A stretch of DNA of 46,507 nt from NCBI RefSeq assembly GCF_022548875.1, contig NZ_JAKZEW010000030.1, positions 9,968 to 56,474 of the forward strand, written 5' to 3'. Below the pieces are notes generated by a model that searched no databases, was not told the origin of the DNA, and saw nothing but the letters and a program-made list of their open reading frames with translations. Below are positions 5,188 to 8,344 of this stretch, one piece after another; the first letter of the stretch is position 1, and each line of letters opens with the position of its first letter. The position numbers and the translations under genes are program-made. Source of the DNA: Glycomyces sp. L485. Lineage in GTDB: Bacteria; Actinomycetota; Actinomycetes; Mycobacteriales; Micromonosporaceae.

Positions 5188-6156
5188 TTAGTCGCCGAAG
5201 TCCGAGACGCGCGTCGCGCCGTAGTAGACGTTGCCGTGGTCGATCCTGACGACCTTGACGACGCTGCGGGAGTTCGGCGCGTGGACGATGTAGCCGTTGC
5301 CGATGGCCATGCCGACGTGGCTCAGGCTGTTGTAGAACACCAGGTCGCCGGGCCTGATCTCGTCGCGGGAGATCTTCGCGGTCATGTTGTACTGCGCGGC
5401 GGCGTTGTGCGGCAGGGAGATCCCGACCTGCGCGTAGGCGTCGAGCATGAGGCCGGAGCAGTCGTACTGGTTCGGCCCGGCCGCGCCCCACACGTACTGG
5501 TCGCCGATCTGGTCGAGCGCGTGCATCACGACGTCGGCCCGGTCGCCGTCCATGTACGGCAGCTGGTAGTTCTGGACCGCGTCACCCGAGACTGTTCGCC
5601 ACTCGGCTTCGAGGTCGTCCATTCGGGCCTCGATCTCGGTCTTCTTGTCCTCCAGCTCGGCCTTGTCGGTCTCCAGGTCCTCCTGGAGCTCGGTGAGCAG
5701 GTCGAGCTGCGTGGTGTACTCCTCGGTGGCCGTGTTCAGCTCGGCCATGAGGTCGAAGTCGTACATGTTCGCGGAGTTGAGCCGGTCGAGGCGTTCCACG
5801 AACGCCTGGGGGGAGCCCGATTCGAGGAGGAGCGCCGTGTCGCCGATACCTTGGTCCACATAGGTCTCGGTGATGAAGCCGGCGAGGCGCTCCTGCAGGT
5901 CGTCGAGATCGGCCGCGGACTCTTCGAGCCCGGCCTCGACCTCGTCGATCATCTCCTCGTTGTCGGCGATCTCGACCGCGAGGGCGTTGTACTCCTCGAT
6001 CGTGGTGTTGAGATCGTCGTCCACGCTCTGGATCTCGTCCTCGACCGCCTCGCGGTCGCGCTGGGCCCAGGCGGGGGTCGAGGCGACCGCCGATACGAGA
6101 AGGCCGCCGACCAGAGCGGCGGACGTCCATTTGCGTCGGAGGTGCGGATGCTTCAC
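5188..6156 (-). CDS. Secreted NlpC/P60 peptidoglycan endopeptidase with coiled coil
   Basis: A 322-residue RipA/CwlO-type protein. It has a signal peptide (about residues 1-31, ending TPAWAQ) and a long acidic coiled coil (~35-190, DDLQERL, ELQEDLETDKAELEDKKTEIEARMDD in pieces). The C-terminal NlpC/P60 domain (~205-322) has nucleophile Cys233 in YDCSG, His280 in SHVGMAIG and a third polar residue, His292. The family cleaves D-Glu to diamino-acid bonds in stem peptides during growth and septation, and the coiled coil usually restrains the enzyme until an FtsEX-type partner acts. Start is GTG at 6156 with GGAG ~10 nt upstream; a TAGGCT -10 lies at 6208-6213. Confidence 0.93.
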   Translation of the reverse strand: MKHPHLRRKWTSAALVGGLLVSAVASTPAWAQRDREAVEDEIQSVDDDLNTTIEEYNALAVEIADNEEMIDEVEAGLEESAADLDDLQERLAGFITETYVDQGIGDTALLLESGSPQAFVERLDRLNSANMYDFDLMAELNTATEEYTTQLDLLTELQEDLETDKAELEDKKTEIEARMDDLEAEWRTVSGDAVQNYQLPYMDGDRADVVMHALDQIGDQYVWGAAGPNQYDCSGLMLDAYAQVGISLPHNAAAQYNMTAKISRDEIRPGDLVFYNSLSHVGMAIGNGYIVHAPNSRSVVKVVRIDHGNVYYGATRVSDFGD

Positions 6157-6207
6157 GAGGAGGGCGCTCCTTCGGGGTGTCTGAAGTCTGGGGACGGACC
6201 GAAGATG

Positions 6208-6213
6208 AGCCTA
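6208..6213 (-). promoter_or_regulatory. -10 hexamer TAGGCT for NlpC/P60 gene
   Basis: On the minus strand TAGGCT would set transcription start near 6200, giving a ~45-nt leader with the GGAG ribosome site. The leader is too short for a c-di-AMP (ydaO) riboswitch. Confidence 0.4.
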
Positions 6214-6318
6214 GCGCGCGTGACGGGGCGTGGGAAGGGCCCGGGCATGACAAATTCGCAGCGTGACGCCCATTCCACGGATGGTGCGGCGCTCCGGTGA
6301 GTTGCCTGGGAGTTCCGG

Positions 6319-6324
6319 TACGAT
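6319..6324 (+). promoter_or_regulatory. -10 hexamer TACGAT for leaderless leader peptide/CDO transcript
   Basis: TACGAT is followed after 7 nt by the ATG at 6332. No Shine-Dalgarno sequence precedes that ATG, so it should be the first codon of the transcript. Confidence 0.6.
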
Positions 6325-6331
6325 GTGCGTC

Positions 6332-6379
6332 ATGGTCTTCACGATGTGTCGCTGTCGCCGGTGTCCCGGCACCCGCTGA
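6332..6379 (+). CDS. Leaderless Cys-rich leader peptide (15 aa) upstream of cysteine dioxygenase
   Basis: ATG at 6332 opens a 16-codon frame, MVFTMCRCRRCPGTR then TGA (6377-6379). Three of 15 residues are Cys, all TGT codons at 6347, 6353 and 6362, with Arg codons between. The start sits 7 nt after a TACGAT hexamer. The stop is 53 nt before the cysteine dioxygenase start. This matches in design the leaderless polycysteine short ORFs known in mycobacteria to act as cysteine-responsive attenuators of sulfur genes. Placement upstream of the enzyme that consumes cysteine makes a regulatory role likely. Whether low or high Cys-tRNA raises expression cannot be told from sequence. Confidence 0.65.
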   Translation: MVFTMCRCRRCPGTR

Positions 6380-6426
6380 GCCCCCGGCTCTCCGTTCGCG
6401 CACCCGTTCCGACACATCGAAAGCCG
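6378..6426 (+). promoter_or_regulatory. Candidate attenuator: competing pairings after leader peptide
   Basis: GAGCC (6378-6382, overlapping the leader stop codon) can pair with GGCTC (6386-6390). Alternatively CGGCT (6385-6389) can pair with AGCCG (6422-6426), next to the weak GAAAG ribosome site of the downstream gene. The two pairings exclude each other, so ribosome position on the leader could decide access to the ribosome site. Stems are short, so this is tentative. Confidence 0.3.
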
Positions 6427-6432
6427 ATCTCC

Positions 6433-6915
6433 ATGCCTGATCTGACGCTCACCGTCCTGGAGGCCGACCGCCTCCGCTCCCTCGCCTCGTTCTACGCCGG
6501 GCACCTCGCGCTGCGCCCCCGGTTCTCCAAGTCGAGCCGCTGGGCCCGACGCGTCCTGGCCGGCCCCGGCCACGAGGCGTGGCTGCTGGGCTGGCTGCCC
6601 GGGCAGGGAACCGAGCTGCACGACCACGGCGGCCTCGACCGCCCCGCCGCCGCAGCCGTCACCGTCGTCTCGGGCCGATTGGGCGAGTACACGGTGCGGC
6701 CTGGCGCCTTCCCTCGACTGGAGCGGGCCGAGCTGGCGCCGGGCGAGGTGTCGACGGTCGACGACCGGACCGTCCACGCCATGCGCAACGACTCCGACGC
6801 GCCCGCGGTGAGCCTGCACGTCTATTCGCCGGGCCTGGACGCGATGCGCACCTACCTGTTCGACGAGACCGGGCTGGCGCCGTCGGCCGTCAAGCGCGCC
6901 GGCGAGGACTGGTAG
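6433..6915 (+). CDS. Cysteine dioxygenase family protein (cupin)
   Basis: A 160-residue single-cupin protein resembling bacterial type I cysteine dioxygenases, which use Fe(II) and O2 to oxidise cysteine to cysteine sulfinate. Metal-binding histidines are visible in ELHDHGG and in the later TVHAMRN motif, as expected for the two cupin motifs. ATG at 6433 (MPDLTLTVLEADRL) is preferred over the in-frame ATG at 6325. The upstream start would add a low-complexity Arg/Pro/Ser tail across the leader-peptide region and lies before the predicted transcription start. The ribosome site is weak (GAAAG, 9 nt upstream). The 3' end overlaps the convergent nnr gene by 26 bp. The Cys-rich leader upstream independently supports a link to cysteine. 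Confidence 0.85.
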   Translation: MPDLTLTVLEADRLRSLASFYAGHLALRPRFSKSSRWARRVLAGPGHEAWLLGWLPGQGTELHDHGGLDRPAAAAVTVVSGRLGEYTVRPGAFPRLERAELAPGEVSTVDDRTVHAMRNDSDAPAVSLHVYSPGLDAMRTYLFDETGLAPSAVKRAGEDW

Positions 6916-8344
6916 CCGACAGGACCGCCCCGACCGCCTGGGGCAGGGCCGCGGCGACGTCCGAGGCGGTGACGGTTCGCCGTCCCCTCGATGCGATCCC
7001 GGCGGCCCGACCGTGCAGGAACGCCGCGGCGACGGCGGCGCTGACGGCGTCCATGCCGGAGGCCAGCAGCGAGGTCAGGAAGCCACCGAGGACGTCCCCG
7101 GAACCGGCGGTGGCCAGCGCGGGCCGCCCGGACGGGTTGGCCCAGACGGCGCCGTCGGGACCGGCGATGACGGTGTGGTGCCCCTTGAGCAGGACGGTGC
7201 AGTTGAGTCGCTTGGCGAGTGCGGCCGCCGCGGCGGCGCGGTCGTCGCCGGGCGGCGAACCGTAGAGGCGCTCGAATTCACGGTCGTGCGGAGTGAGGAC
7301 GACGGGGGCCTCGCGTCCGGACAGGACCGACGGGTGTTCGCCGATGAGCGTCAGGGCGTCCGCGTCCATGACGGCCGGGACCGAGCAGGCGAGGACGGCG
7401 CGCAGTTCGGCCAGGGCCCGTTCGTCGGTGCCGATGCCGGGGCCGACGAGCCAGGCCTCGACGCGCCCGGCCTCCTCGACGGTCTCGGTGGAGACGACTT
7501 CGGCGTACCTGCGGCGCACGTGGTCGGCGGCGGCGCCGGCGTAGCGGACGTAGCCGGCGGGGCCGGCGAGGGCGCCGGAGGCGGCGAGGACGGCGGCGCC
7601 GGGGTAGCGGTCGGATCCGGCGGCGACGCCGACGACGCCCCGGGTGTACTTGTCGTCCTCGGGCCCTGGGGTGTGCCACCAGGAGCGGATGTCGGTCTCG
7701 GCGGCGACGGTGACGACCGGGTGCGGGTCGAGATAGGGCGTGAGCCCGATGTCGACGAATTCGAGGCGGCCGGTGCGCAGGGCGGCCTCGCCGAGGACGT
7801 GGCAGGGTTTGCGGGCTCCGAAGGTGACGGTGACATCGGCGGTGACGGCCCCTGCCGGGACGGCGCCGGTGTCGACCTCGACGCCGGAGGGGACGTCGAC
7901 GGCGATGACGGTGCCGGCGCTGATGCGGCCGAGGAGGTCGGCGGCGCGGTCGGGCAGGCCGGGGCGGCCGCCGATGCCGAGGATGCCGTCGAGGAGGAGG
8001 TCGCAGTCTTCGGGCGGGTCTTCGGTGAGGCGCCCGCCGGCGCGGTTGAGCGCGGCGGCGGCGAAGGGGTGGACGCGCGTGCCCATGACGGGGACGGCGA
8101 AGACGCGGGCGCCGCGCTCGGCGAGGCGGGCGGCGGCGAACAGGGCGTCACCGCCGTTGTCGCCGGGCCCGGCGAGGACGGTCACGGTGGAGCCGTAGAC
8201 GTTCCCGGGGTCCTGCTTGAGGATCCGGGCGGCCGCTGAGGCGAGCCCCGCGGCGGCGCGCTGCATGAGCGTGCCCGGTGGGAGCTTCGGCATGAGTTCG
8301 GCTTCCGCGCGGCGAACCGCCGCCGATGACCAAGCTGCGTCCAT
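6890..8344 (-). CDS. nnr: Bifunctional NAD(P)H-hydrate epimerase / ADP-dependent dehydratase
   Basis: A 484-residue two-domain repair enzyme. The N-terminal YjeF_N epimerase (~1-210) has the glycine-rich LAGPGDNGGDALFAAR loop and converts R- to S-NAD(P)HX. The C-terminal ribokinase-like dehydratase (~230-475) has TAGSGDVLGGFL near residue 430 and restores NAD(P)H using ADP. ATG at 8344 has GAGGGG 8 nt upstream. It lies 13 bp after acpS on the same strand, so the two are probably co-transcribed; acpS-nnr pairing is common in actinobacteria. The 3' end overlaps the cysteine dioxygenase gene tail to tail. Confidence 0.95.
   Translation of the reverse strand: MDAAWSSAAVRRAEAELMPKLPPGTLMQRAAAGLASAAARILKQDPGNVYGSTVTVLAGPGDNGGDALFAAARLAERGARVFAVPVMGTRVHPFAAAALNRAGGRLTEDPPEDCDLLLDGILGIGGRPGLPDRAADLLGRISAGTVIAVDVPSGVEVDTGAVPAGAVTADVTVTFGARKPCHVLGEAALRTGRLEFVDIGLTPYLDPHPVVTVAAETDIRSWWHTPGPEDDKYTRGVVGVAAGSDRYPGAAVLAASGALAGPAGYVRYAGAAADHVRRRYAEVVSTETVEEAGRVEAWLVGPGIGTDERALAELRAVLACSVPAVMDADALTLIGEHPSVLSGREAPVVLTPHDREFERLYGSPPGDDRAAAAAALAKRLNCTVLLKGHHTVIAGPDGAVWANPSGRPALATAGSGDVLGGFLTSLLASGMDAVSAAVAAAFLHGRAAGIASRGRRTVTASDVAAALPQAVGAVLSATSPRRRA

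Follow-up and report, generated by a model that had tools for sequence, protein, structure and literature searches.

What does a cysteine-rich leader peptide control when the gene behind it is annotated as an enzyme that degrades cysteine? The question is raised by a stretch of 46,507 nt of Glycomyces DNA (hereafter the window), in which a 15-codon ORF with three Cys codons precedes a gene of the cysteine dioxygenase (CDO) family; the host genome measures 4.4 Mb, and a protein search places the nearest named relatives of the CDO-family protein in Glycomyces species. Leaderless polycysteine short ORFs of the Ms5788A type are said to have been described in mycobacteria by Canestrari and colleagues in 2020. 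Leaderless polycysteine short ORFs in mycobacteria also figure in the available part of Shell et al. (2015; PMC4633059), and the available part of Seliverstov et al. (2005; PMC1262725) presents candidate Cys leader peptides of cys operons in Mycobacterium, P. acnes and B. longum (cbs). Leader peptides with Cys codons are already known from actinobacteria, and the case before a CDO-family gene appears to be new: no report of a Cys leader before a cysteine dioxygenase was found in the open-access literature, searched by titles and the starts of abstracts and with subscription papers outside its scope.

Cysteine attenuation would here extend to a gene whose annotation is that of a cysteine-degrading enzyme, and the whole candidate switch (leader start, rare TGT codons, masking helix and Shine-Dalgarno sequence) is contained in about 100 nt. 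The sign of regulation read from its anatomy conflicts with the cysteine-degrading annotation, and therefore the mechanism and the purpose of the dioxygenase bear on each other.

The Leader and Its Surroundings

The first-pass annotation of this DNA had described a TACGAT, a spacer of 7 nt, an ORF of 15 codons with TGT at 6347, 6353 and 6362, and an interval of 53 nt before the dioxygenase gene, and these coordinates are right to the base: the ATG of the leader occupies 6332-6334, its TGA occupies 6377-6379, and 53 nt separate that stop from the ATG at 6433 (Table 1). The dioxygenase gene stands alone, since its upstream neighbour is a divergent NlpC/P60-family gene (5188-6156, minus strand) and its downstream neighbour a convergent gene of the NAD(P)H-hydrate dehydratase/epimerase type (6890-8344), both assigned by Pfam. 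Scans of positions 6150-7000 detected neither a consensus pair of sigma-70 promoter hexamers nor an intrinsic terminator or terminator-like site with a T-run, and no known RNA family in Rfam matched up to an E-value of 1 over positions 5800-7000. An N-terminal extension of the dioxygenase, whose frame in the window has no stop as far back as GTG 6325, was rejected because only 10 of 22 Glycomyces loci keep that frame open to the leader start and because the interval between the two reading frames varies in length (52-71 nt). Between the NlpC/P60 gene and the dioxygenase promoter, a block seen by eye in most Glycomyces loci (TGACAAATTCGCAGCGTGACG, 6248-6268 in the window) is possibly an operator.

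Table 1. Positions of the leader, the candidate pairing elements and the dioxygenase gene in the window.
Feature	Position	Strand	Basis or conservation
-10 element TACGAT	6319..6324	+	TANNNT 6-8 nt 5' of start in 29/29 leaders
Leaderless-type leader ORF MVFTMCRCRRCPGTR, stop included	6332..6379	+	22/22 Glycomyces loci
5' arm of putative masking helix; core CGATGTGTCG at 6342-6351	6334..6351	+	MFE fold
First Cys codon TGT (codon 6), 3' end of masking arm	6347..6349	+	
Second Cys codon TGT (codon 8)	6353..6355	+	
Third Cys codon TGT (codon 11)	6362..6364	+	
Small hairpin GAGCC-CCC-GGCTC over leader stop codon	6378..6390	+	MFE fold
3' arm CGACACATCG	6410..6419	+	
Probable Shine-Dalgarno GAAAG, 9 nt before CDO-family ATG	6419..6423	+	
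CDO-family thiol dioxygenase, 160 aa	6433..6915	+	PF05995; AlphaFold/Foldseek

Conservation of the Leader

ORFs of leaderless form were defined as 8-30 codons opening with ATG or GTG 6-8 nt after a TANNNT. Both strands of the window together hold three, and only the leader of the CDO-family gene has at least two Cys; 40 mononucleotide shuffles of the window gave a mean of 7.3 such ORFs, 0.60 with at least two Cys and 0.03 with at least three, by which measure one such ORF with two Cys is unremarkable and one with three is rare. The comparative evidence against a chance origin is stronger than these shuffle statistics. Across the window and the loci L002-L017 (144,927 bases) there are 23 ORFs of leaderless form, and the 17 with at least two Cys are the 17 leaders, one per locus. 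A covariance model of the element, trained on 17 of the 22 genomes of the genus with five outside training and with 147 candidates scored per genome, gave one strong match in each of the 22, adjoining the CDO-family gene (E 7e-32 to 9e-19); the next-best match had an E-value of 0.04.

Relatives of the CDO-family protein were found at 52 loci in a scan of genome contigs, and 165 of 200 genomes of the window's GTDB family have a match to it. The comparison set consisted of 31 distinct loci at which the protein is at least 50% identical (tblastn). At 28 of these, a leaderless-type short ORF with at least two Cys codons begins 6-8 nt after a TANNNT; L019 and L084 have such an ORF with a single Cys, and at L076 no leaderless-type ORF with Cys was found before the CDO-family gene. 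Counts given over 29 leaders leave out L084. As Glycomyces (n=22) we count the window, L002-L017 (including L005, a metagenome assembly of the same GTDB genus) and the further loci L063, L065, L067, L068 and L073 of that GTDB genus; the leader is present at all 22. The leaderless-type architecture and the Cys codons that the first-pass annotation had recognised in one sequence are thus both kept in related genomes, the start lying 6-8 nt after the TANNNT in every one of the 29 leaders tested. We conclude that the leader is not a product of chance.

The first Cys falls at codon 6 in 20 of the 22 Glycomyces leaders and at codon 8 in the other two, and codon 11 encodes Cys in 17 of the 18 leaders of 48 or 45 nt. 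Each Glycomyces leader has 2-4 Cys, at positions that also vary. Cys accounts for 63 of 304 leader residues at the Glycomyces loci and for 83 of 418 in the 29 leaders; the four Glycomyces dioxygenases counted have none in 632 residues. The peptides drift while the Cys codons stay, as in MCRCQRCCRTR, SCPCRRCHQR and TLCCHRR, or YGCCR and CALCCCCR in the Stackebrandtia group. Internal deletions of 12, 9 and 3 nt, with flanks kept, were seen by eye in Glycomyces L017, L065 and L068, respectively. Variable sites are distributed over the first, second and third codon positions as 13/5/7 in the 48-nt leaders and 6/3/2 in the 45-nt leaders; the first position being the most variable, this is not the usual coding pattern, and it counts against the explanation that we consider best. 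Leaderless-type short ORFs that end in GGLARCR and contain one or two Cys stand before more distant homologues at L084 and L085, which suggests that the leader may reach further into the family than the counts given here.

A Helix That Could Mask the Shine-Dalgarno Sequence

The core of the 5' arm, CGATGTGTCG, holds the first Cys codon and is the exact reverse complement of CGACACATCG, which adjoins the probable Shine-Dalgarno sequence. Measured against dinucleotide shuffles, pairing of the leader arm in the window gave z -3.2 (p 0.006), and pairing between leader nucleotides 1-22 and the last 34 nt before the dioxygenase start gave p<0.05 at each of the 22 Glycomyces loci (mean z -3.44). RNAalifold recovered the same long helix unprompted from 17 sequences, and their consensus fold also has a helix at the place of the small hairpin over the leader stop. 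In the 3' arm the pattern C G A C. C.. C G, covering 7 of 10 core positions, is invariant in all 22 Glycomyces loci, each of which has a Shine-Dalgarno sequence of the form GAA[A/G]G 8-13 nt before the start. When the helix is written out, 85.2% of 352 cells are standard pairs, against 26-45% with one strand slid, and none of 500 shuffles reaches 85.2%. The compensatory evidence is thin: changes on both sides occur in 3 of 16 pairs and in eight cells, figures that are reached in 436 and 57 of 500 shuffles, respectively, and 12 of 500 shuffles attain the covariation score of 0.115, which one slid version surpasses (+2; 0.126). Covariation alone does not prove the helix.

Outside the genus the picture is different. 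Pairing is weak at the seven loci of other genera (0/7 at p<0.05, mean z -1.12, Fisher 0.014), and pairing with the Shine-Dalgarno sequence above shuffles was found neither at nine Streptomyces-like loci (L124-L132, defined by CDO_I matches above 150 bits; mean z +0.35, none below p 0.05) nor at the 10 of 15 Cellulomonas loci tested (mean z -0.29, none below p 0.05), the other five having no match to the Shine-Dalgarno motif used. A masking helix as a general rule was rejected on the Streptomyces-like and Cellulomonas results, and a match by eye between CCGTCCTG and CAGGACGG at several Streptomyces-like loci is not claimed, because pairing at these loci is not above shuffles.

Preference for TGT Codons

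Of the 83 Cys codons in the 29 leaders, 77 are TGT, against 13 of 266 in neighbouring ORFs (94 mechanically predicted ORFs in the window and L002-L017, where the DNA is about 70% GC); the nominal p of 3e-93 for this contrast ignores relatedness and is not to be taken as a probability. The leaders at seven loci from other genera have TGT at 18 of 20 Cys codons. The helix as cause of the preference was rejected, since TGT is used for 40 of 42 Cys codons outside the helix arm and for 19 of 21 inside it. These codon counts point to selection for a slow, starvation-sensitive codon.

Proposed Mechanism and Its Sign

On balance we favour the reading in which the leader is a cysteine-responsive translational attenuator of the CDO-family gene. 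Going by the -10 spacing, transcription would start on the A of ATG 6332 or on a neighbouring base, and translation of the leader by a 70S ribosome would begin at once. With Cys-tRNA plentiful, the ribosome would complete the 15 codons and leave; 6334-6351 would then pair with 6410-6423, in a helix that would hide the Shine-Dalgarno sequence of the dioxygenase and allow little enzyme to be made. With Cys-tRNA short, the ribosome would stop at the rare TGT of codon 6 with its footprint over the 5' arm, the helix could not form, and the dioxygenase would be translated. From the ORF, its leaderless-type spacing and conservation, the TGT preference, the complementarity and the modelled accessibility, all of which rest on the data analysed here, we infer where transcription starts, that the ribosome stalls, that the gene is regulated and with which sign, and what the enzyme does.

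The first-pass annotation had also taken the leader for an attenuator, with the suggestion that its logic may be inverted with respect to that of cysteine-biosynthesis operons. A plausible RNA switch is retained from that reading; the inversion is not. Because the masking arm is the 5' end of the leader up to the first Cys codon, a stalled ribosome should unmask the Shine-Dalgarno sequence, and this arrangement predicts a leader of ordinary sign, ON when Cys-tRNA is short. The predicted sign agrees with that of translational attenuation at mycobacterial cysteine genes, as the available part of PMC13236596 describes it.

Stalling was modelled by placing a 30-nt ribosome on a leader codon and computing the probability that the Shine-Dalgarno sequence is unpaired. 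The mean over the 22 Glycomyces loci was 0.19 for free RNA, 0.48 for a stall at the first Cys codon, 0.28 at the last Cys codon and 0.21 at the stop codon; in the window the modelled value rises from 0.27 in free RNA to 0.60 with the ribosome on the first Cys codon. The modelled gain on a first-Cys stall exceeds 0.2 at 16 of the 22 loci, the window included, and is smaller than 0.2 at six (L002, L003, L004, L005, L008 and L011), four of which fall below free RNA; at these exceptions the helix ends just short of the Shine-Dalgarno sequence. Within the group of 48-nt leaders only the window shows the effect, which is missing at L002-L005 and L011, and for the subgroup to which the window belongs this is where the model is weakest.

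Alternative Explanations

An inverted logic would have cysteine excess open or couple translation of the dioxygenase by read-through of the leader, and stalling shut it, so that surplus cysteine is removed. This would be sensible for a true cysteine dioxygenase, and the enzymes do keep the iron His residues and the Ser-His-Tyr motif, most of them with an Arg close to where CDO has Arg60; the helix must also be melted by any ribosome that passes, and the available part of PMC12763843 has cdo genes up in feather-degrading Streptomyces on a cysteine-rich diet. In the same available part, however, two Streptomyces cdo genes remain low through 48 h and are up at 96 h along with sulfate-assimilation genes, a late rise that fits cysteine shortage as well and so accommodates either reading. 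The anatomy is less accommodating: the masking arm is situated at the first Cys codon and on its 5' side, a modelled ribosome at the leader stop leaves the Shine-Dalgarno sequence about as hidden as in free RNA (0.21 vs 0.19), and the distance of 52-71 nt from stop to start in Glycomyces is long for direct coupling. An inverted logic would need a masking arm 3' of the Cys codons, or direct coupling, and neither is seen; we judge it unlikely.

The Cys leader might instead act on transcription, through Rho or an effect between ribosome and RNA polymerase, with the helix a secondary matter. Actinobacterial Cys leaders without terminators are known, with Rho proposed, from the available part of PMC1262725; Cys leaders stand before this family in Streptomyces-like and Cellulomonas loci that have no Shine-Dalgarno pairing above shuffles, and the window's own leader group mostly lacks a modelled gain in Shine-Dalgarno access. 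We nevertheless think a transcriptional route unlikely for Glycomyces, where the arm containing the Shine-Dalgarno sequence is invariant at 7/10 core positions in 22/22 loci and pairs better than shuffles in each, and where the scan of 6150-7000 found no terminator-like site in the window.

A nascent Cys-rich peptide that senses redox state or metal, with cysteine supply not the signal, could draw on closely spaced Cys (CRCRRC) able to bind metal or form disulfides, but the number and position of the Cys vary and the other residues drift while TGT is tightly kept, which makes such a sensor very improbable. That there is no translational regulation at all, and that a conserved RNA element or promoter region carries accidental TGT codons, would suit third positions that are not the most variable and hence an RNA constrained in itself, but is scarcely credible when 29 leaders preserve an open frame, the start spacing and Cys codons, when the internal deletions measure 12, 9 and 3 nt, and when nearly all Cys codons outside the arm are TGT.

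The Dioxygenase and Its Substrate

The window protein belongs to the Pfam family CDO_I (PF05995; E 1.8e-13, 50.8 bits against a cut-off of 23), and its AlphaFold model has a mean pLDDT of 90.6. Residues H63, H65, S127, H129 and Y131 are kept in 30/30 aligned Glycomyces-group proteins, and H115 is invariant in an alignment of 12 proteins. The name cysteine dioxygenase given in the first-pass annotation is therefore right as to the family, the iron His residues and the Ser-His-Tyr motif; function as a cysteine dioxygenase is not certain.

By profile and by fold, the closest solved relative is the ergothioneine dioxygenase of Thermocatellispora tengchongensis (PDB 8QFL and others; our statements on the structures with codes beginning 8QF rest on their PDB titles). 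A profile search gave it an E-value of 4e-24, the best type 1 CDO chain having 2.7e-16, and Foldseek placed the 8QF structures at ranks 1-7 (E 1.1e-11) and the CDO of B. subtilis at rank 8 (1.6e-10). The ergothioneine dioxygenase differs from the window protein in sequence, with 23-25% identity, and carries Ala/Ser in place of Arg39/Arg40 of the window protein. R39 is aligned to the Arg of a type 1 CDO chain (CDO Arg60), with R40 adjoining, in a register that HMMER sets differently; Arg and Gln types of CDO are described in the available part of PMC8050391. A single-sequence search put a 3-mercaptopropionate dioxygenase chain (6xb9; 3.7e-6) first and ergothioneine dioxygenase second (6.7e-5). 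Because of the Arg position and this single-sequence search, ergothioneine dioxygenase was not accepted as a settled identity.

The homologue is followed by a rhodanese-like gene at 4 of the 13 loci with neighbours listed (assigned by Pfam on three of the four), these being L033 of Mumia, the Streptomyces-like L124 and L131, and L134 of the window's own family. The window's own genome has two methyltransferase genes of PF10017, which we take to be the family of the ergothioneine enzyme EgtD; the PF10017 profile also matches in E. coli. Sulfur salvage by the window dioxygenase, for example from ergothioneine, would be possible.

Translation turned ON under Cys-tRNA shortage would make no sense if the enzyme consumes cysteine, and would call for another thiol as substrate: the predicted sign suits sulfur salvage, but is paradoxical for an enzyme that destroys cysteine. 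The role most coherent with the predicted sign would be release of sulfur from some thiol when cysteine is short. We tentatively propose, as a possibility that falls well short of probable, that cysteine shortage turns the thiol dioxygenase ON and that this enzyme, together with many actinobacterial relatives called cysteine dioxygenase, serves sulfur salvage from a stored thiol such as ergothioneine and not cysteine disposal, the sign of the leader revealing the role. Actinobacterial CDO annotations may need a second look, given that the nearest solved relative of the window protein, by profile and fold, is an ergothioneine dioxygenase.

Relation to Known Cysteine Leaders

With mycobacterial leaders of the Ms5788A type, the Glycomyces leader shares a predicted leaderless start, a short ORF, Cys codons late in the peptide and a place upstream of sulfur genes, with cysteine supply as the proposed signal. 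It differs from them in its target, a lone thiol dioxygenase gene, in the Shine-Dalgarno helix, in the almost exclusive use of rare TGT, and in having no match to the models NF042933 (leader_Ms5788A) and NF042934 (cis_reg_atten). Neither model matched the window peptide, whether padded with Ala to 20 aa or in an upstream-extended form of 31 aa; in the window's own genome, none of five NF042933 matches up to E 10 lies at the CDO leader, and none of five NF042934 matches up to E 1 lies there or passes the cut-off. The likeness of the Glycomyces leader to the mycobacterial polycysteine leaders appears to be one of kind and not of sequence. One typed example of the Streptomyces-like leaders, by contrast, does match NF042934 (E 1.7e-9); these leaders are without Shine-Dalgarno pairing above shuffles.

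A second leaderless-type Cys leader, MRKPMLTKRRAIDFCTIATTLCRMP, lies elsewhere in the same genome (G000:C111:87401-87460, minus strand; L158), with a TAGCGT, 7 nt and an ATG, ahead of a rhodanese gene and a DUF1416 gene (Pfam). It is Ms5788A-like, with an NF042933 E-value of 1.4e-7 that is below the model's cut-off; an Ms5788A-like match is present in 22/22 genomes of the genus, and a further, weaker NF042933-like match occurs elsewhere in 17 of the 22. Judged by its sequence, the L158 leader is a recognisable relative of the Ms5788A-type leader, and we count it for the attenuator reading.

The Cys leaders in the available part of Seliverstov et al. (PMC1262725) resemble that of Glycomyces in their runs of Cys codons near the stop and in being without a terminator; they differ in their targets, cys and cbs operons, and that part reports no helix masking the Shine-Dalgarno sequence. 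The nearest mechanical parallel to the Glycomyces helix there is the LEU element, in which Leu codons are paired with the Shine-Dalgarno sequence.

Leaders Before Relatives in Other Genera

Cys leaders stand before members of this family in Cellulomonas and Streptomyces-like genomes as well, so that the question is not confined to one genus. All nine Streptomyces-like loci have a leader containing ...RYAGCVCRPS before the homologue, with its stop 72-127 nt before the CDO-family start, and a rhodanese-like gene follows the homologue at both of those with neighbours listed (L124 and L131). All 15 Cellulomonas loci have a leader with Cys near the end, which reads SCPACCQ or SCPARCQ in 11, and, by eye, most of these leaders come after a GGAG that resembles a Shine-Dalgarno sequence. 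At the other loci scanned, where at least two Cys were required, a Cys leader was found at some (for example L023, L089, L095 and L109) and not at many.

Two local complementarities were noticed by eye. In Cellulomonas L025 and L031, the leader sequence GGCCTGCT, with its Cys codons, is complementary to AGCAGGCC shortly 3' of the stop, which may represent a different switch. In the Stackebrandtia group (L079, L081 and L082), the last Cys-Arg codons, TGTCGC, can pair with a CGACA right after the stop, and could form a local hairpin in place of the long helix.
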